DNA of 34,314 bases from a virus, in the IMG/VR virus record IMGVR_UViG_3300024062_000028, positions 1 through 34,314 of that record. One strand, 5' to 3'. The notes under the pieces were generated by a model. That model had not been told where the DNA came from. It saw only the letters and a list, made by a program, of their open reading frames with translations, and searched no databases. This document shows positions 1,198 to 30,980 of the stretch, in pieces. Both the position numbers and the translations under genes were made by a program. Positions within the stretch are counted from its first letter, which is position 1. Every line of letters begins with the position of its first letter.

Positions 1198-1518
1198 TTA
1201 AACTAATATATTTTTAAATTCTTTTAAATTTCTTACTAAATGATATTCATGCCCTAGTTTCTGAACACCCTGTTCAAAGCGTTTTTGTTTATCTGACTGT
1301 TTGCCTATTTCGTTTTTCACTTCTACAAATAGTACTTTGTTATTTAAAACTATTACTAAATCTGATACACCACTAAGTAAACCAGTTTGAAGTAAATCTT
1401 TCATAGCCATGTAACCACCTGAACGCTCATTAGGAACGCTAAAGCATAAGCCACGACCATAATAATTAGATCTAAAGTATTTTACTATTTCCTGTTGTAT
1501 TTTATTTTCTGCTTTCAT
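1198..1518 (-). CDS. VRR-NUC domain nuclease
   Basis: A 106-aa protein. I start it at the ATG at 1518 because the longer frame to 1653 would run through two intergenic palindromes and the end of the preceding gene. The core fits the VRR-NUC (PD-(D/E)XK) fold: GVSDLVIV with Asp near residue 53, then VLFVEVKN with Glu66 and Lys68, then a Gln near 78 in a KQSDKQKRF helix. Such stand-alone proteins are often encoded beside SNF2 helicases in phage genomes and are thought to cut branched or recombination intermediates. The next gene downstream is a SNF2-type helicase, so a joint role is likely. Family assignment is firm; the substrate is inferred. Confidence 0.85.
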   Translation of the reverse strand: MKAENKIQQEIVKYFRSNYYGRGLCFSVPNERSGGYMAMKDLLQTGLLSGVSDLVIVLNNKVLFVEVKNEIGKQSDKQKRFEQGVQKLGHEYHLVRNLKEFKNILV

Positions 1519-1535
1519 AATTATAAAAAAATATT

Positions 1536-1600
1536 GGTGCATTAAAACGCACCATAACAGCCTATAAACGCCATTAAAACGGGCGTTTATTTTGGTGTTA
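1536..1600 (-). repeat. Double palindromic spacer with CGTTTTAAT loops
   Basis: Two adjacent hairpins lie between the genes ending at 1598 and starting at 1518. The larger spans 1555-1600: ATAAACGCC (1564-1572) pairs perfectly with GGCGTTTAT (1582-1590), and the outer arms are TAAC at one end and GTTA at the other. The smaller pairs GGTGC (1536-1540) with GCACC (1549-1553). Both have the same minus-strand loop core, CGTTTTAAT. The TAA stop of the upstream gene is part of the outer TAAC arm. Confidence 0.75.
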
Positions 1601-1861
1601 TAAGACAATAGCACTTGAATAATTGTCGTAACCATCATTATCTCTACAACCATAGCAAGGTTCTACGTATTTACTAACTGCTTGGTGTTTACAAGTGCTA
1701 CAGTCTATAACACGTGGTATGGTTAAATTTTTAACCTTACCTTCCAGCTCTTTTACGTAGTTTTCTATCTTAGTTAATTCTAACTCAACCATTCCATAAG
1801 TGCCCATGCAGTGCAAGTCACTTACAAGTTTCTTTATTTCTAATACATTTTCTTTTATCAT
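1598..1861 (-). CDS. Small protein with paired CxxC motifs
   Basis: An 87-aa protein I do not recognise. The first 50 residues are helical and charged (KEN...KIENYVKELEGKVKNL), resembling a short coiled coil. The second half has DCSTCKH and EPCYGC, two CxxC pairs about 12 residues apart, which suggests a zinc-binding knuckle. It sits in the short-gene array between the replicative helicase and VRR-NUC gene, with a palindromic spacer after its stop codon. The start at 1861 is the first ATG after the upstream spacer. A nucleic-acid-binding or adaptor role is possible but not demonstrated. Confidence 0.7.
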   Translation of the reverse strand: MIKENVLEIKKLVSDLHCMGTYGMVELELTKIENYVKELEGKVKNLTIPRVIDCSTCKHQAVSKYVEPCYGCRDNDGYDNYSSAIVL

Positions 1862-1893
1862 CTTTTCTACTTTTAAATCGGTTAAAAATCAAA

Positions 1894-1911
1894 CCATACC
1901 ACTATACGTTA
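1894..1911 (-). repeat. TAAC-type spacer arm after a small gene
   Basis: On the minus strand this reads TAACGTATAGTGGTATGG. It resembles the arms at 2805-2821, 3238-3254 and 3562-3581 (consensus about YAACGnnTTGTGTATGG). The first three bases are the stop codon of the 1909-2100 gene. The opposite arm is reduced here, so this looks like a decayed or one-sided copy of the palindromic spacers in the array. Confidence 0.5.
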
Positions 1912-2100
1912 TACAACAGATAAATCACTAACCCACCTTAAACAAGGGTTGCCTCCTCCGTTATATTCTTTTGGTGGCTCTTTATCATACATCACCATAT
2001 AAGCAAATACTTTTTTACTTGTCCCTTGTATTATCTCTACTATTACCCCATAACCTAGAAACTCGTCATTTATTCTCTGTCCAACTCGTAATTTATCCAT
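1909..2100 (-). CDS. Unknown 63-aa protein of the short-gene array
   Basis: A 63-aa protein with no recognised family. The sequence begins KLRVGQRINDEFLGYGVIVEI, a beta-rich pattern seen in small SH3-like barrels, and continues with KVFAYMVMYDKEPP and a Gly-rich NGGGNPC turn before a WVSDLSVV end, which would suit a compact beta barrel. There is one Cys and no signal peptide or membrane segment. It is flanked by palindromic spacers on both sides (1894-1911 and 2105-2138) and shows no overlap with its neighbours, unlike the tightly coupled genes of the replication and head modules. Confidence 0.65.
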   Translation of the reverse strand: MDKLRVGQRINDEFLGYGVIVEIIQGTSKKVFAYMVMYDKEPPKEYNGGGNPCLRWVSDLSVV

Positions 2101-2104
2101 TGTA

Positions 2105-2138
2105 TAACATTATTTAAAAAGCATTAAAACGCTTTTTA
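2105..2138 (-). repeat. Palindromic spacer with CGTTTTAAT loop
   Basis: TAAAAAGC (2115-2122) pairs perfectly with GCTTTTTA (2131-2138) around the loop ATTAAAAC, which on the minus strand gives the shared GTTTTAAT core. A TAAC (2105-2108) marks the outer end. It occupies most of the gap between the gene ending at 2160 and the ATG at 2100. Confidence 0.7.
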
Positions 2139-2159
2139 TATTTACCATTAGCAATAATT

Positions 2160-2465
2160 CTAATATACTTTTTGCGTATTAACGTGTAAAGTTTTATAAT
2201 TTGCTTTCAATCTAACTATTTCCTCCTGTGCTTTTTCGTAAGTTGATAAGTAACTTATGGCATTGTGGTTTTTTGCATCTTCAACAATGTAAACAAAACT
2301 ATTGCTAACATTGTGTAAATCTAATTGCTCAATTTTTTCTATTCTCGAAACCAATTGGCGTTCTAACCAATTCTCATAAGTTTCAATTTCATCATTTCCA
2401 TTACCATTATCTGTACTTGTTGCGTTGTACATATTATACAACATCTGTTTTTTATCTTTTTCCAT
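2160..2465 (-). CDS. Unknown 101-aa acidic protein of the short-gene array
   Basis: A 101-aa protein with no recognised family. The N-terminal 30 residues are polar and acidic (NGNGNDEIETYENWLERQL). The middle and C-terminal parts are helical, with SFVYIVEDAKNHNAISYLSTYEKAQEEIVRLKANYKTL, which would suit a short helical hairpin. No Cys pairs, signal peptide or membrane segment are seen. It stops with TAG at 2160, and both flanks carry palindromic spacers (2105-2138 and 2508-2533). Real coding is supported by the clean start after the spacer and the lack of competing frames. Confidence 0.65.
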   Translation of the reverse strand: MEKDKKQMLYNMYNATSTDNGNGNDEIETYENWLERQLVSRIEKIEQLDLHNVSNSFVYIVEDAKNHNAISYLSTYEKAQEEIVRLKANYKTLHVNTQKVY

Positions 2466-2507
2466 ATCTGTTATTTAAAAATTAATCAACTAAACTTACA
2501 CCTACCA

Positions 2508-2536
2508 TTGTATGCAATTAAAAAAGCACACAACAA
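2508..2536 (-). repeat. Palindromic spacer, near-copy of 3581-3608
   Basis: On the minus strand TTGTGTGC pairs with GCATACAA (one G-U pair) around the loop TTTTTTAATT. The run GTATGCAATTAAAAAAGC followed by ACACAACAA (2510-2536) is nearly the same as the sequence at 3581-3608, over about 27 bases. The two copies sit between different small genes. Confidence 0.7.
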
Positions 2537-2554
2537 CGTGTATAAAAAATAAAT

Positions 2555-2791
2555 TTATTCAAGTTCTTTATCCGTTATTGCTTTGTACACGCTCTTTAAG
2601 TCTGCCATATCTTTAAGGGTTTTAATATAATACAAACCACCATCAACTTCACAGAAATGGCATAAATCCCATCTACCTTTAAATCTATTGCTTTTTATTA
2701 TACTAAATTCCCGTCTATCGCAATAACTACCATCGGTTTCTTTTCCGAATGTTTGCAGTTTATCTAAGTCTTTCTCTGTTATCATATCCAT
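2555..2791 (-). CDS. Unknown 78-aa protein of the short-gene array
   Basis: A 78-aa protein I do not recognise. It has an N-terminal helix (MITEKDLDKLQTFGKE), then a beta-rich middle with GSYCDRREFSIIKSNRFKGRWDLCHFCEVDGGLYYIKTL. The CHFC pair plus an earlier Cys could bind a metal but no full zinc-finger pattern is visible. The C-terminal helix ends in LKSVYKAITDKELE. The start ATG at 2791 follows the upstream stop by only 27 bases, and that gap is filled by a TAAC arm. No signal peptide or membrane segment. Confidence 0.65.
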   Translation of the reverse strand: MDMITEKDLDKLQTFGKETDGSYCDRREFSIIKSNRFKGRWDLCHFCEVDGGLYYIKTLKDMADLKSVYKAITDKELE

Positions 2792-2804
2792 AAATTTACA
2801 TTTT

Positions 2805-2821
2805 CATACACAATTCAGTTA
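2805..2821 (-). repeat. TAAC-type spacer arm overlapping a stop codon
   Basis: The minus strand reads TAACTGAATTGTGTATG, matching the YAACGnnTTGTGTATGG arm seen elsewhere in the array. The TAA is the stop codon of the 2819-3142 gene. No clear second arm is present in the 27-base gap, so this is a half-element. Confidence 0.5.
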
Positions 2822-3142
2822 TAAGACATTTAATCGTGCTATCAAACTACCATCTGTATCTAAACGCCCTGCCCACCATCCTAAACTAAACCATCCGTTA
2901 TCTAAGGTTCGTACAAATACTACATCTTCTTTGGCTTCTTTGAGTTTCCCCTTAACAAAATAGTCAGTTTCTTTATTGTAAAGCCAATGGCAGTGTTCAA
3001 CTTCTTCAAACCAATTAGCTTTAGTATCTTTATCTATTTTGTTAAATCGCACAAGTTCTGTTATTATAACTTTGTCGTGTCTGCTTGGGTTTATTTTCCC
3101 GTCATCAAAGTAATCGTATTCTTTATTAAGTTCTGGTATCAT
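2819..3142 (-). CDS. Unknown 107-aa Trp-rich phage protein
   Basis: A 107-aa protein with no assigned family. It reads as a beta-rich soluble domain with many aromatic residues: NKEYDYFDDGKI near the N-terminus, a central WFEEVEHCHWLYNKETDYFV, and GWFSLGWWAGRLDTDGSL near the end. Repeated hydrophobic-charged alternation and paired Trp suggest a small ligand- or protein-binding fold. Start is the ATG at 3142, after a long palindromic spacer (3165-3254). The stop codon is built into the next spacer arm. Function unknown. Confidence 0.7.
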   Translation of the reverse strand: MIPELNKEYDYFDDGKINPSRHDKVIITELVRFNKIDKDTKANWFEEVEHCHWLYNKETDYFVKGKLKEAKEDVVFVRTLDNGWFSLGWWAGRLDTDGSLIARLNVL

Positions 3143-3164
3143 ATCTTTAGTAAAAAACGGCTTA

Positions 3165-3257
3165 TAACAAAGTGTATAGTTAAAAAGCCTAATTAGTATT
3201 CGTTCATTTAATCAAAGTCTGTACATTGGCTTTCAAACCATACACAAACCGTTAGGT
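3165..3257 (-). repeat. attC-like long imperfect palindrome
   Basis: On the minus strand the 5' arm (3254-3228) begins TAACGGTTTGTGTATGG and ends GAAAGCC. The 3' arm (3189-3165) begins GGCTTTTTAAC and ends TTTGTTA. Aligned as inverted copies, they share TAAC, GTGTAT, GTT and AAGCC with small bulges, around a roughly 38-base loop. The bases at 3257-3251 read ACCTAAC, a perfect fit to the integron attC R'' box RYYYAAC, and partly precede the stop of the 3258-3506 gene. Size, TAAC/GTTA ends and bulged stem all resemble an attC site; recombination is not shown. Confidence 0.55.
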
Positions 3258-3506
3258 TTAATTTTCTATTATCAACCTACATTCATCACACCAAACCATT
3301 TCGGGGTAATTGTATTTAGGTTTTTCACATTTACAATTATTACCTATCCAATTTCTAATATTATTGTTTCTTTGTTCAATTGTTATTTCAGGGTGTTTTT
3401 CATTATACATCTTAATCAATTCCATTGTTTTAAGATGAGTATTTTCTTTAGCAAATTTTGCCATCCTTACCATATCTAAACTACTGTATCTATTTCTTAT
3501 AGCCAT
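3258..3506 (-). CDS. Unknown 82-aa protein bracketed by attC-like boxes
   Basis: An 82-aa protein. The N-terminal half is helical with a HTH-like rhythm (SLDMVRMAKFAKENTHLKTMELIKMYNEKHPEITIEQRNNNIRNWIG). The C-terminal part has CKC and CDEC (NCKCEKPKYNYPEMVWCDEC), a likely zinc ribbon. A small DNA-binding protein is a reasonable guess but unproven. Its 5' flank carries GTTAGGT (3538-3532), matching R' (GTTRRRY), and its 3' flank carries ACCTAAC (3257-3251), matching R'' (RYYYAAC). That is the order expected for one integron cassette. Confidence 0.7.
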   Translation of the reverse strand: MAIRNRYSSLDMVRMAKFAKENTHLKTMELIKMYNEKHPEITIEQRNNNIRNWIGNNCKCEKPKYNYPEMVWCDECRLIIEN

Positions 3507-3531
3507 ATCTTTTATTTTTAAATTAAACTAA

Positions 3532-3581
3532 ACCTAACACTTTGTATATGGCATTAAAACGATGCCATACACAATGCGTTG
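3532..3581 (-). repeat. attC-like palindrome with CGTTTTAAT loop
   Basis: TATGGCAT (3547-3554) pairs perfectly with ATGCCATA (3562-3569), and the arms continue imperfectly to TAACACTTTGTA on one side and TACACAATGCGTT on the other (3535-3581). The minus-strand loop is CGTTTTA. At the 3' end on the minus strand, GTTAGGT (3538-3532) matches the attC R' box GTTRRRY. The 5' end reads ATACAAC, one base off RYYYAAC. Confidence 0.6.
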
Positions 3582-3608
3582 TATTCAATTAAAAAATACA
3601 CACAACAA
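3581..3608 (-). repeat. Second copy of the 27-base spacer sequence
   Basis: GTATTCAATTAAAAAATAC followed by ACACAACAA is a near-duplicate of 2510-2536. GTATT and AATAC form a short hairpin around an A/T-rich loop. It directly adjoins the attC-like palindrome at 3532-3581 and lies between that element and the 3' end of the tRNA-like sequence. Confidence 0.6.
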
Positions 3609-3617
3609 TAAATATAA

Positions 3618-3711
3618 ATAATAGGGTAGGACTCGAACCTATGCCAAACGACTTTCACCGTTCTTGGAAAACCAAATCCTCGTTTGTTTATTTGTTAGCA
3701 ATACCCTACTA
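3618..3711 (-). tRNA. tRNA-like sequence, isotype unresolved
   Basis: The minus strand has a classical T-arm, GGTTCGAGTCC, at about 3640-3630. The ends can pair as an acceptor stem, AGTAGGG with CCCTATT (one G-U), followed by TA in the U8-A9 position. A 3-bp D-stem (TTG/CAA) and a variable-arm-like stem ACGG/TCGT can be drawn, giving about 94 nt, the size of a type II tRNA. However the D-loop lacks the usual GG, the T-stem is 4 bp or has a mismatch, and no anticodon arm is clean: CCA and TTG readings are both possible, each with mismatches. CCA is not encoded. It could be a divergent phage tRNA or a decayed one. Confidence 0.4.
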
Positions 3712-3734
3712 TTCATATTCTTTGCCGTTATAAA

Positions 3735-3986
3735 CTATTCCTTTGCTACGTTACCGCATTTTAAGCAATGTAATTCATTTATTAATGTTGTATCGTGTTT
3801 AATTTCTTTATCGCAAACACCGCAAAGCAACATCTCGCTATCGTTTTTACAACTAGATTTATAATTAATAGCTTTTATAGTGTCTTTTAACAAATTATCT
3901 ACAAACCATTTATTATTATCAGAACCTAGGTTTTCCCAGCCAAAGTCTTTTTTTAATTTACTTTTTAATTGTTTTAATGTAATCAT
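3735..3986 (-). CDS. Small zinc-ribbon protein, first gene of the array
   Basis: An 83-aa protein. The N-terminal half is basic and helical (ITLKQLKSKLKKDFGWENLGSDNNKWFVDNLLKDTIKAI). The C-terminal half has CGVCDKEIKH and CLKCGN, two CxxC pairs about 20 residues apart, a good zinc-ribbon pattern. Nucleic-acid binding is plausible but not shown. It follows the TATATTTG promoter at 4048-4055 and a roughly 60-base leader, so it appears to head the short-gene transcription unit. Just after its TAG stop the minus strand reads TTTATAACGG, again like the TAAC arms further down. Confidence 0.7.
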   Translation of the reverse strand: MITLKQLKSKLKKDFGWENLGSDNNKWFVDNLLKDTIKAINYKSSCKNDSEMLLCGVCDKEIKHDTTLINELHCLKCGNVAKE

Positions 3987-4047
3987 TTTTTATAAAGTTT
4001 TTTAATTAATTCACGCTACTAAGGTTATATAAATTAGTTATCGAGTA

Positions 4048-4055
4048 CAAATATA
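4048..4055 (-). promoter_or_regulatory. Promoter -7 box heading the short-gene array
   Basis: The minus strand reads TATATTTG (TAnnTTTG consensus), 61 bases before the ATG at 3986 and just after the SF2 helicase stop codon. The -33 position has only TTA. It would allow the array of small genes and the tRNA-like element to be transcribed apart from the replication operon. Confidence 0.5.
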
Positions 4056-4062
4056 AACATTA

Positions 4063-5655
4063 TTATTTATTTTCATAATATTTATTCAATTTATTAAATA
4101 CTTTTTTTTCAAAATCTTTTATAGTCCTTTTTCTGTTACCTTCTAAAGTTGATCCATGTAATGCAAAATAAATAGGTTTTATAAATGATTTGATCTTATC
4201 AGTTAAATATACTTTATTAGCTTTTACATTTTCTAAACTTGTATTAGCAAATATAAACATATCTAAAATATAGTTAGCTGTTAAATTTTTAGCATCATTT
4301 ATGTTTAAACCTTTAGCTTCTGAATATCTTAATATACTGTTTGGTGTAGGTGGTGGCATTTCTTTAACTTGTTCAGCTATCACTATCTTACTTTTAGCTT
4401 TTCTTTTAGTTGGTTCTTTTGCACCACATACTTCACAGTCATAACTTTCTATTAATGAATCACAATTATGGCATACTATAAAATCTTCTAATTCTCTTAT
4501 GCGTGTTTTTTTCTCTTTTTCATTATTGTATATTGTATCCCAGTCTACATTATCAGACCATGAACCAAAGCGACCTAAATTACCACCTAAATCAACACAT
4601 AAAAAAAACGGTTTAAATATTTTATCCGTAATACGACCACCACGCCCAACCATTTGATGATATAAACTTAAACTTTGAGTAGCTTTATTCAATATAATCG
4701 CTTCTACATCATCTACATCAAAACCAGTTGTAAATACACCAACTGACATTAATATACCGTTAGGTGTATCTCTAAACCATTCTACAACGTCTTTTCGACT
4801 TTCTTTAGATTTAGAATGATACGAACGAACATTATAGCCTTTCATTTTAAACATCTTATACGCTTCATCATTGGCTTCAATATTAGAATTGAATACCATA
4901 GTTTTCTTATCTAAACAATGTTCTTCATAGTTAGCTAATAAATTTTCAGTACTTGCTAAATTATTAAATACTTCATCCTGTGACTTTTTAGAATATTCAC
5001 CACTTGCATCTGTTTGTAATTTATCTAAATTAGGCAAATCACAGCTTAAATTATGTACTGGAGTTAAAAAACCTAAATCTATTAATTCTGATATTTTAAC
5101 GCCTTGTATTAAATCACCGTACCAACGTTTTAAACTAACTTTTAAAGTATATTTTTGTGTATCTTTTCCACAACAAATTGATTCTGTAGCGTGTTTTTCT
5201 CCGCAGTATTTACATTTATAATAGCTTTCAGTTTTCATTGTAACTGGTGTAGCTGTAAATCCTAATAAACGACCTTTAAATTCATTGAATACTTTTACAA
5301 ATTGTAAATTTTGTATTTCATCCACTATAATTAAATCAATATTATCAATATCAAATACACCTTTTTTGATACGGTTGTTTACAGTTTCTACCATTCCGAT
5401 TAATACTTCACCTTTGCCTATCGTTTTAGTTTTAGCTGTTATTAGTGATTTAGTTCTAGTAATATTTTTCGCTGTTTGTTCTAGTAATTCAGTACGATTT
5501 ACCAATATCAAAATACGTCCTTTATAGTTGTTAGCTAGGTAGCTAAATATAATTGTCTTACCTGAGCCAGTGCTGGACTGTATGCAATTTCTAGCGGTTG
5601 TACTTGCATTGATTTGATTTACTAGATTTTCCTGATAATCTCTAAGTTTAATCAT
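4063..5655 (-). CDS. SF2 DEAD/DEAH-box replicative-type helicase
   Basis: A 530-aa superfamily 2 helicase of the type III restriction/UvrB-like kind. Motifs in order: LRDYQ near residue 4, Walker A SSTGSGKT (27-34), DEIQ (112-115), TATP (134-137), and motif VI HQMVGRGGR near 340. Two zinc-knuckle insertions are visible: CKYC...CC (148-162) just after motif III, and CHNC...CEVC after motif VI. It overlaps the upstream primase gene by 4 bases (ATGA), so translation is probably coupled and the two proteins likely work together at the phage fork. DNA unwinding is inferred from family. The Cys-rich insertions are typical of phage versions. Confidence 0.9.
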   Translation of the reverse strand: MIKLRDYQENLVNQINASTTARNCIQSSTGSGKTIIFSYLANNYKGRILILVNRTELLEQTAKNITRTKSLITAKTKTIGKGEVLIGMVETVNNRIKKGVFDIDNIDLIIVDEIQNLQFVKVFNEFKGRLLGFTATPVTMKTESYYKCKYCGEKHATESICCGKDTQKYTLKVSLKRWYGDLIQGVKISELIDLGFLTPVHNLSCDLPNLDKLQTDASGEYSKKSQDEVFNNLASTENLLANYEEHCLDKKTMVFNSNIEANDEAYKMFKMKGYNVRSYHSKSKESRKDVVEWFRDTPNGILMSVGVFTTGFDVDDVEAIILNKATQSLSLYHQMVGRGGRITDKIFKPFFLCVDLGGNLGRFGSWSDNVDWDTIYNNEKEKKTRIRELEDFIVCHNCDSLIESYDCEVCGAKEPTKRKAKSKIVIAEQVKEMPPPTPNSILRYSEAKGLNINDAKNLTANYILDMFIFANTSLENVKANKVYLTDKIKSFIKPIYFALHGSTLEGNRKRTIKDFEKKVFNKLNKYYENK

Positions 5656-30005: not shown

Positions 30006-30006
30006 T

Positions 30007-30858
30007 TTATATGAATTTATTTAATTTATGACCTTTAGACTTAGTGCCTTCAGTATCGGTTTGAGTGTCTTTATCGGACGGCTCTAATTTATGAGTGTCA
30101 GCTGGTGACGGCTCAATATTTTTATTATCTAGTAATCCAGTTGCTCCATTAGAACCCCTTAATACTAAACTAGATTCACCTATATTTTTAGCTTCTGAAA
30201 CAATCCAAAAGTAATCTAATTCTTCAAAATCAGCTTTATTAGCTATTGTGTTAATATGGTTATCAAAATTAGTTTTTTCAGTTGCATCTTCTTTACTATC
30301 AGAATTTAATGCTAATTTGATATTAACGTATTGCATACGTACACTAGCCTCAATATCACTACCTGATTCTAGCCATTCTTTTGCTAGTGGGTTAATAATA
30401 TCATCTTTAGCTACTTTATAAATTAATGCTTGTGTATTACCAGCGTAATCTTTACCTATTGAACTAAAAGGAATCTCAGCTAATAACATTTCAATGTTTT
30501 CTTTTTTAGCTACTACATTAGCTAATTCCATTTTATGATCAGTAACTAAATAGTTTTTTCCTTGTTGCTCGTTAACTGTTTTATTCCAAATACCATCTAC
30601 GTGTAAATCAGAATGACTATCTAATATTTTAGTAGTGTTAACTGCTATGTAATAATAATTTGAATCAGTTAAAATACCTTTTGTAGTTGTTCCCAACTTG
30701 GTAACATCTATTGATTTAGCATTAACACCTAAACCCTTTTCAAAGCTCTTTTGTATCGTGCTACGTTTTAAAGAAATAATATCAGGCGCATTATCTTTTA
30801 AAGCCTTGAACAATTCAGCTTTTGTTTCGTATGTTGTATTTAGTTCTTTACAAATCAT
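30007..30858 (-). CDS. Probable prohead maturation protease
   Basis: A 283-aa protein between portal and capsid genes, the usual place of the HK97-type maturation protease. The core has NYLVTDHKMELANVVAK with a His near residue 107, and GSDIEASVRMQYV with a Ser near 172, patterns that would suit a His/Ser protease of the U35/S78 group. The C-terminal 45 residues are a polar, acidic and Lys tail. The first 60 residues are helical. It overlaps the small 41-aa gene by 4 bases. Catalysis is inferred from layout and partial motifs; it is more divergent than the capsid and portal proteins. Confidence 0.65.
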   Translation of the reverse strand: MICKELNTTYETKAELFKALKDNAPDIISLKRSTIQKSFEKGLGVNAKSIDVTKLGTTTKGILTDSNYYYIAVNTTKILDSHSDLHVDGIWNKTVNEQQGKNYLVTDHKMELANVVAKKENIEMLLAEIPFSSIGKDYAGNTQALIYKVAKDDIINPLAKEWLESGSDIEASVRMQYVNIKLALNSDSKEDATEKTNFDNHINTIANKADFEELDYFWIVSEAKNIGESSLVLRGSNGATGLLDNKNIEPSPADTHKLEPSDKDTQTDTEGTKSKGHKLNKFI

Positions 30859-30980
30859 TTTTCAATGGTTTTATTTTCTTTTAAGGCTTTTAACTTCTCT
30901 TTTATAGATTTAGTAGCCTTTTCGCTTAATCCTTTTTTTCTAAGTAAGTCTTGTATTTTATTCGCTTTCGTTTGTTCCAT
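30855..30980 (-). CDS. 41-aa basic helical protein between portal and protease
   Basis: A 41-aa frame overlapping the portal gene end by 23 bases and the protease start by 4 bases (ATGA). The protein is a single Lys-rich amphipathic helix (IQDLLRKKGLSEKATKSIKEKLKALKE). The coupling to the protease start supports translation. It could be only a coupling peptide or a small assembly factor. Function unknown. Confidence 0.55.
   Translation of the reverse strand: MEQTKANKIQDLLRKKGLSEKATKSIKEKLKALKENKTIEK

Follow-up and report, generated by a model that had tools for sequence, protein, structure and literature searches.

The subject of this study is a viral DNA of 34,314 nt (the window; positions 1 to 34,314 of IMG/VR record IMGVR_UViG_3300024062_000028) and, within it, a row of seven small genes that are separated by imperfect palindromes and lie between a helicase gene and a nuclease gene. 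Comparison with other phages showed that whole units of such arrays are exchanged with breakpoints at TAAC. It is quite probable that the region, in a Bacteroidota phage of lytic type, is made up of single-gene cassettes that can be exchanged by the recombinase mechanism proposed below. An earlier note, made from the sequence of the window, had described the palindrome-separated array of small genes, an observation which is confirmed here, and had read it as a set of exchangeable integron-like cassettes between the helicase and the nuclease/SNF2 pair, for which the phage comparisons now provide support.

The closest phage, IMGVR_UViG_3300024520_000321 (L002), encodes flanking proteins that are 96, 94, 93 and 82% identical to those of the window and holds none of the seven small genes. 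The interval between helicase and nuclease spans 2545 nt with seven small genes in the window, and 807 nt with two other small genes and sites of the same kind in L002. On the left, homology between both phages extends as far as CGATAA, and on the right it starts again at AA^CACCAAAATA. The contigs L089 and L093 are, in the compared stretch, otherwise unrelated to L095, with which they have one 354-nt unit in common that is 99% identical and runs from one TAACG to the next, and L127 and L130 have a common 334-nt unit with TAAC at both ends. In L091 and L133, identity sets in precisely with the terminal site's TAAC. The cultured Flavobacterium phage mumin6-1 possesses one cassette, within TAACGTT, that is missing in tooticki6-1, the flanks being 99.9-100% identical, and the Nonlabens phages P12024S and P12024L differ by one methyltransferase cassette between ends of the same kind. 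What is exchanged are single genes, and the break lies at AA^C, which is complementary to G^TT at the R box. As predicted, small genes come and go and change their neighbours where the palindromes begin or end in several independent comparisons, and the covariance search, which the earlier note had named as decisive, tied the palindromes to gene gain and loss.

The palindromes between the small genes have TAAC and GTTR ends, and the loop CGTTTTAAT is common to the sites. A covariance model built from 28 sites, with those of the window and of its closest relative left out (model R2), recovered three sites in the window (E=8e-10 to 1e-6; Table 1), all of them within the array and on the minus strand, which is also the strand of the genes. 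Beyond these three, the search over the 34-kb window gave reverse-strand echoes and chance matches only, the next non-site match having an E-value of about 1. This independent model bears out palindromes with TAAC and GTTA-type ends in the array. The inventory comprises three complete short-loop sites, one long-loop site and others that are degenerate or half sites. Three copies are supported by R2, one was recognised by eye, and for four degenerate or half copies (near 2500-2544, 3577-3609, 2803-2823 and 1880-1913) there is no statistical support. Compared to shuffled sequences, the fold of the 3533-3590 stem is far better (z -5.8). The stop codons said to be built into TAAC are real at 1598, 1909 and 2819; at 3258 the stop lies 6 nt before the TAAC, in line with the "nearly" of the earlier note. 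A loose scan for inverted repeats gave no excess (4900 versus 5706 in the reversed sequence) and was replaced by the covariance models, and an over-specific site pattern matched no viral contig.

Further support for the site family comes from an alignment of 30 sites from the window and related contigs (model R1), in which 88.6% of the cells are paired. Double changes occur in 76 cells compared to 28.8 (standard deviation 4.4) in shuffles, none of 500 shuffles reached 76, and sliding the partners destroyed the pairing signal. The R helix is paired in 95.7% and the L helix in 86% of the cells, with an excess of double changes, and the R boxes fit TAAC/GTTR and only in part the full 7-nt consensus (RYYYAAC / GTTRRRY). 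The stems vary between copies yet keep pairing, and the loop stays CGTTTTAAT. Since the stems change while the loop does not, both the hairpin structure and the loop sequence appear to be under selection, with the conservation of the loop being in part built into the sample, because the sites were gathered partly by their loop. The sites are attC-type imperfect palindromes with structure conserved over sequence, and the same family is present in cassette arrays of Bacteroidota chromosomes. In some long-loop sites (mumin6-1, L235; L091:2832-2950) the start codon and first codons of a gene lie inside the site, so that the N-terminus of the protein is constrained by a hairpin arm. A very large phage cassette array is that of contig L102 (G411, 71,433 bp), whose first 13 kb hold no fewer than 25 sites together with some 35 tiny genes, further sites being located near 37 and 66-70 kb; a Pfam search with ten of its cassette proteins revealed almost no functions.

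In six phage exchange events the upstream flank is changed and the downstream flank shared, with the same site body in five of the six, and events of the opposite kind were not observed among them. The site body goes with the downstream gene in the mumin/tooticki cassette, too. Because the site body travels with the downstream gene, the phage cassette consists of a site followed by a gene, which is the reverse of a standard integron cassette. By simple open reading frame calls and with related contigs included, 50 of 67 viral sites had flanking genes of the direction class same/same and one was opposite/opposite (the remainder being mixed or at contig ends), whereas 26 of 34 sites on Bacteroidota chromosomal contigs were opposite/opposite and two same/same. 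Both of the latter are located on L148, a 5.5-kb contig of a metagenome-assembled genome (MAG) that is phage-like in look. The published annotations of Tenacibaculum phage JQ, Cellulophaga phage phi13:2 and Polaribacter phage P12002L agree with the phage polarity. In the chromosomal arrays with the same sites, the attC follows its cassette gene on the 3' side, as in a standard integron, and in the phages it does not. The comparison to a standard integron made in the earlier note holds for the general likeness, while the polarity of sites relative to genes is, by the flanking-gene counts, reversed. On the G093 chromosome, four contigs with different left flanks have the same site body and right flank, with the break at AAC. 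Since the break falls at AAC here as well, the breakpoint end is a property of the site, and it is the gene direction that differs between phages and chromosomes. The orientation of the model was considered as a source of the reversed polarity and rejected, because the breakpoints lie at the same site end in phages and in G093 while the gene direction differs. All four G093 contigs (L181-L184) end just past the same site and right flank, so that several copies exist of one chromosomal cassette.

A protein with a tyrosine recombinase domain (PF00589) was not found in the window, in agreement with the earlier statement that it contains no integron integrase. Two phage-like contigs, G428 (265,845 bp, with a 97-nt terminal repeat and genes for ribonucleotide reductase, a DnaB-type helicase and a protease; L299, L300:16964-17767) and G435 (33,465 bp, with phage-like metabolic genes; L304:15738-16541), each encode a 267-aa recombinase, the gene of which adjoins a same-polarity cassette array on its 3' side. 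Both enzymes are 70% identical to each other, and one of the two arrays has more than 20 tiny genes. Related phages, or some of them, thus seem to encode a recombinase of their own for the array. The 267-aa phage recombinases are 39-44% identical to Bacteroidota recombinases of approximately 370 aa that are encoded next to chromosomal arrays of this site family in G139, G116 and G317, with a decayed copy in G002. A related chromosomal recombinase lies within 10 kb of sites in four genomes, where a rough estimate from gene and site counts gives an expectation below 0.1, and the side on which the recombinase is found is, in the frame of the site, the same in phages and chromosomes. The recombinases are 33-37% identical to a Bacteroidota IntI, score 158-211 bits compared to the TIGR02249 cut-off of 265, and lack the IntI-specific insert in the alignment; an IntI with this insert was found neither in the window nor among the recombinases of its relatives. 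The search for an integron-type tyrosine recombinase near the repeats in host genomes, as proposed in the earlier note, has led to IntI/XerA-related enzymes and not to a true IntI. Because the sites lie near the former and not the latter, "integron-like" is the right term for these arrays, and "integron" would go too far. Downstream of some full-length relatives of about 370 aa (L277, L284, L292, L293), 130-nt attC-like palindromes are present instead, so that several types of site are probably used within the recombinase family.

The end of the array adjoining the nuclease gene is formed by a module of two hairpins, AACACCAA-stem-CGTTTTAAT-stem-GGCTGTTATG and then a short hairpin with the same loop. 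The module, too, folds far better than shuffled sequences (z -4.4), and it exists with different stems and neighbours in five other contigs (L222/L224, L223, L225, L226 and L228) and as a variant in L091/L133. We infer that it acts like an attI.

The mechanism that we propose would operate with units of one hairpin site and the gene behind it, ending at the stop TAA that abuts the next AA^C. An IntI/XerA-related tyrosine recombinase would cut the folded site at AA^C, equivalent to G^TT on the other strand and in the manner of IntI, and would excise or insert cassettes, preferentially at the terminal attI-like module. Since the window phage has no such enzyme, either its host or a co-infecting phage would have to provide one in trans. 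Transcription would proceed from a phage early promoter through the array, and for this reason the cassette genes could point towards the integrase end. The cargo would probably consist of early accessory functions such as restriction evasion, which is the least certain part of the proposal. Which recombinase acts on the window phage, and what the array does for it, we can only infer.

Several results weigh against this explanation. Only the products of recombination are seen and not the reaction itself, and the mumin/tooticki difference, taken by itself, could also have arisen by replication slippage that deleted the sequence between 7-nt repeats. Several sites of the window are half sites or degenerate. 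A PF00589 protein was present in only 4 of the 50 array-bearing viral records tested, two of the four being outside the recombinase family described above. In the 1.4-20 kb retrieved for twenty further full-length relatives of about 370 aa, a convincing R1 site was not seen, and most of the full-length relatives examined lack a site of the family in their vicinity. There is also one reversed, chromosome-like methyltransferase cassette in P12024S (L231, 33421-33472), and the polarity counts are not independent, because they include related contigs and depend on simple gene calls.

Alternatively, the phages might have taken up true integron cassettes passively from host integrons, as clusters of attC sites without integrase (CALINs) that are moved by the bona fide IntI of the host. 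A true IntI is encoded in 105 of 395 Bacteroidota genomes sampled (27%, above the NCBIfam cut-off, many at contig ends), and P12002L has sites of the window's family in a region whose attC2 was recombined by IntI1 into attI1 (PMC9892861). However, about a dozen IntI-adjacent regions contained no site of the family except for one weak match (E 0.04), those that were scanned had a different attC family, and an association with true IntI was not supported, since it is not clearly enriched in genomes with sites (8/23 versus 97/372). Moreover, the gene direction in the phage cassettes is reversed, which argues against simple copying from chromosomal arrays, and the sole close match between a phage-array gene and a genome locus is L148, the short MAG contig with phage polarity. 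We regard this alternative as doubtful.

A further explanation needs no site-specific enzyme and assumes homologous or illegitimate recombination at short shared palindromes prone to slippage, with genes being swapped or lost through phage annealing recombinases or replication slippage. The lack of a recombinase in the window would fit, as would the fact that the breakpoints always lie in a short common motif, which in mumin/tooticki amounts to 7 nt (TAACGTT) at both ends and is enough for slippage. However, units are found in unrelated backgrounds with which they have no more than about 5 nt in common at either end, the breaks are confined to the AAC end of the site and are seen neither at GTT nor inside the stem, and in two phages dedicated recombinases are encoded at the array end, so that this process is unlikely to account for the exchanges. 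That the hairpins are generic terminators or RNA elements between small early genes, with turnover by ordinary mosaicism, is highly improbable: a T run does follow the second terminal hairpin of the window and attC sites are thought to hold weak terminators (PMC9892861), but most sites have no T run, the start codon lies inside the site in some phages (mumin, L091), the breakpoints coincide with the site end, and the combination expected of generic terminators, a T run and no relation to gene gain or loss, is not what is found.

On the minus strand of the window, the genes are arranged in the order DUF3987 primase-helicase, DEAD helicase, seven small genes, VRR-NUC nuclease and SNF2-like helicase (Table 1). 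The earlier description of seven short genes plus a tRNA-like sequence between the palindromes is right as to the genes; the identity of the latter element as a tRNA is not supported, as ARAGORN and Rfam gave no match and its fold is only weakly better than that of shuffles (z -1.8). None of the seven small genes had a family match above any curated cut-off, and relatives of the cassette genes in named phages are nearly absent. Small gene 3 has a 56% identical homologue in the 636-kb uncultured phage LR756504 (LR756504.1, 35483-35782), a phage with no detectable sites of the window's family. Upstream of the array, the last stretch before the homology break with L002 includes the Bacteroidetes -7-like sequence TATATTTG and possibly serves as the array promoter; beyond the break, the window reads CTAATTTA and L002 reads TGAATAGG.

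Table 1 Features of the cassette array and its borders in the window
Feature	Positions	Strand	Remarks
DEAD/ResIII helicase	4063-5655	-	conserved backbone gene, 5' side of array; family profile search
Possible array promoter region	4038-4057	-	last stretch common with L002 before homology breaks (TTTATATTTGTACTCGATAA)
Small gene 1	3735-3986	-	83 aa, zinc-ribbon-like CxxC motifs; absent from L002
tRNA-like hairpin element	3621-3708	-	not a recognisable tRNA
Degenerate site copy	3577-3609	-	ATTGTTGTGTGTATTTTTTAATTGAATACAACG; by sequence
Recombination site, short CGTTTTAAT loop	3533-3583	-	R2 E 1e-6; fold versus shuffles
Small gene 2	3258-3506	-	82 aa; absent from L002
Long-loop recombination site	3164-3256	-	by eye (CCTAACGGTTTGTGTATGGTTTGAAAGCC...GGCTTTTTAACTATACACTTTGTTATAAG; TAACGGTTTGTGTATGG...CTATACACTTTGTTA); same form as sites of L095/L089/L123
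Small gene 3	2819-3142	-	107 aa
Half site	2803-2823	-	TAACTGAATTGTGTATG; right arm lost; TAA is stop of gene 3
Small gene 4	2555-2791	-	78 aa
Degenerate site	2500-2544	-	CACGTTGTTGTGTGC...GCATACAATGGTAGGTG; by sequence
Small gene 5	2160-2465	-	101 aa
Recombination site, short CGTTTTAAT loop	2103-2152	-	R2 E 6e-8
Small gene 6	1909-2100	-	63 aa; stop is TAA of next TAAC
Half site	1880-1913	-	TATAACGTATAGTGGTATGG; one arm kept
Small gene 7	1598-1861	-	87 aa; stop is TAA of next TAAC
Terminal site	1553-1602	-	AACACCAAAATA-stem-CGTTTTAAT-stem-GGCTGTTATG; R2 E 8e-10; L002 homology resumes exactly at AA^C
Second hairpin of terminal module	1535-1552	-	GGTG-CGTTTTAAT-GCACC
VRR-NUC nuclease (PF08774)	1198-1518	-	conserved backbone gene, 3' side of array

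Several cultured phages, among them P12002L, P12024S and mumin, have DNA methyltransferases in their array cassettes. In Muminvirus, plating on one host goes along with possession of a methyltransferase, and a methyltransferase difference between the Flavobacterium phages has been suggested to explain host-dependent plating (PMC7077304); the exchange of cassettes may therefore help to set the host range. Restriction evasion is a plausible role of some cassettes, while nothing of this kind is shown for the seven genes of the window.

Accessory regions of phages turn over very fast, and how single genes can be exchanged so neatly is an open question, which becomes testable with exchange sites, a unit and a candidate enzyme named in sequenced and cultured phages. 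In a wider sense, there might exist a phage lineage of integron-like systems, characterised by reversed cassettes, the conserved loop, the terminal module and a phage-adapted IntI/XerA-related recombinase without the insert, with large phages possessing the complete system and many smaller Bacteroidota phages only the arrays, for which hosts or co-infecting phages provide the enzyme; to us this is an evenly balanced proposition. If it is true, an integron-like reaction would take place with reversed gene direction and by recombinases without an insert that is held essential for IntI (PMC8138268), and a common pool of exchangeable early genes would be shared across phages.

Compared to known systems, the arrays resemble sedentary chromosomal integrons in their single-gene cassettes, in their imperfect palindromes with pairing AAC/GTT ends, in the breaks at G^TT and in the position of the integrase at the array end. 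In contrast to these, the window has no IntI, the related recombinases have no IntI-specific insert, and the phage site precedes its gene. IntegronFinder 2.0 (PMC9024848) found one complete Bacteroidetes integron; the 27% of our 395 Bacteroidota genomes with a true IntI differ from the very few Bacteroidetes integrons listed in a published survey of complete genomes. A second point of comparison are the XerA-type or integron-integrase-like recombinases of Bacteroidota (NCBIfam NF040815; TIGR02249 below cut-off), which adjoin arrays of the family in the four chromosomal genomes named above, the copy in G002 being decayed. The phage recombinases differ from these chromosomal enzymes in that an N-terminal domain of about 100 aa is missing, too. 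A link of XerA-type recombinases to cassette arrays was not found in the open-access literature, nor was a paper on reversed phage cassettes, the conserved loop or IntI/XerA-related recombinases with arrays.

The closest known counterpart are the phage CALINs. Qi et al. 2023 (PMC9892861) describe 17 CALINs in 10,705 phage genomes, including that of P12002L, and the recombination of P12002L attC2 into attI1 by IntI1. Two P12002L sites in the methyltransferase region (30006-30058, E 1.5e-11; 30907-30957, E 1e-9) match R1 and have the same polarity as those of the window. The IntI1 result, which comes from outside this analysis, would be the strongest experimental argument for an attC-like nature of the family, and the only support for an integrase acting on the folded bottom strand of the site. 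The window fits the definition of a phage CALIN, i.e. at least two attC sites and no integrase in the phage. What it has in common with the published CALINs are attC-like sites that occur in integrase-free lytic phages and are placed between small genes and DNA methyltransferases. As far as the accessible part of that report goes, it covers presence and IntI1 activity and does not describe the conserved-loop family, attC-first units, the systematic reversal of polarity, the module at the array end, the exchange of cassettes among near-identical phages or IntI-related recombinases that are encoded by phages and have no insert. Clusters of attC sites in phages are hence already known, and the reversed-polarity arrays with a conserved loop are a variant of them.

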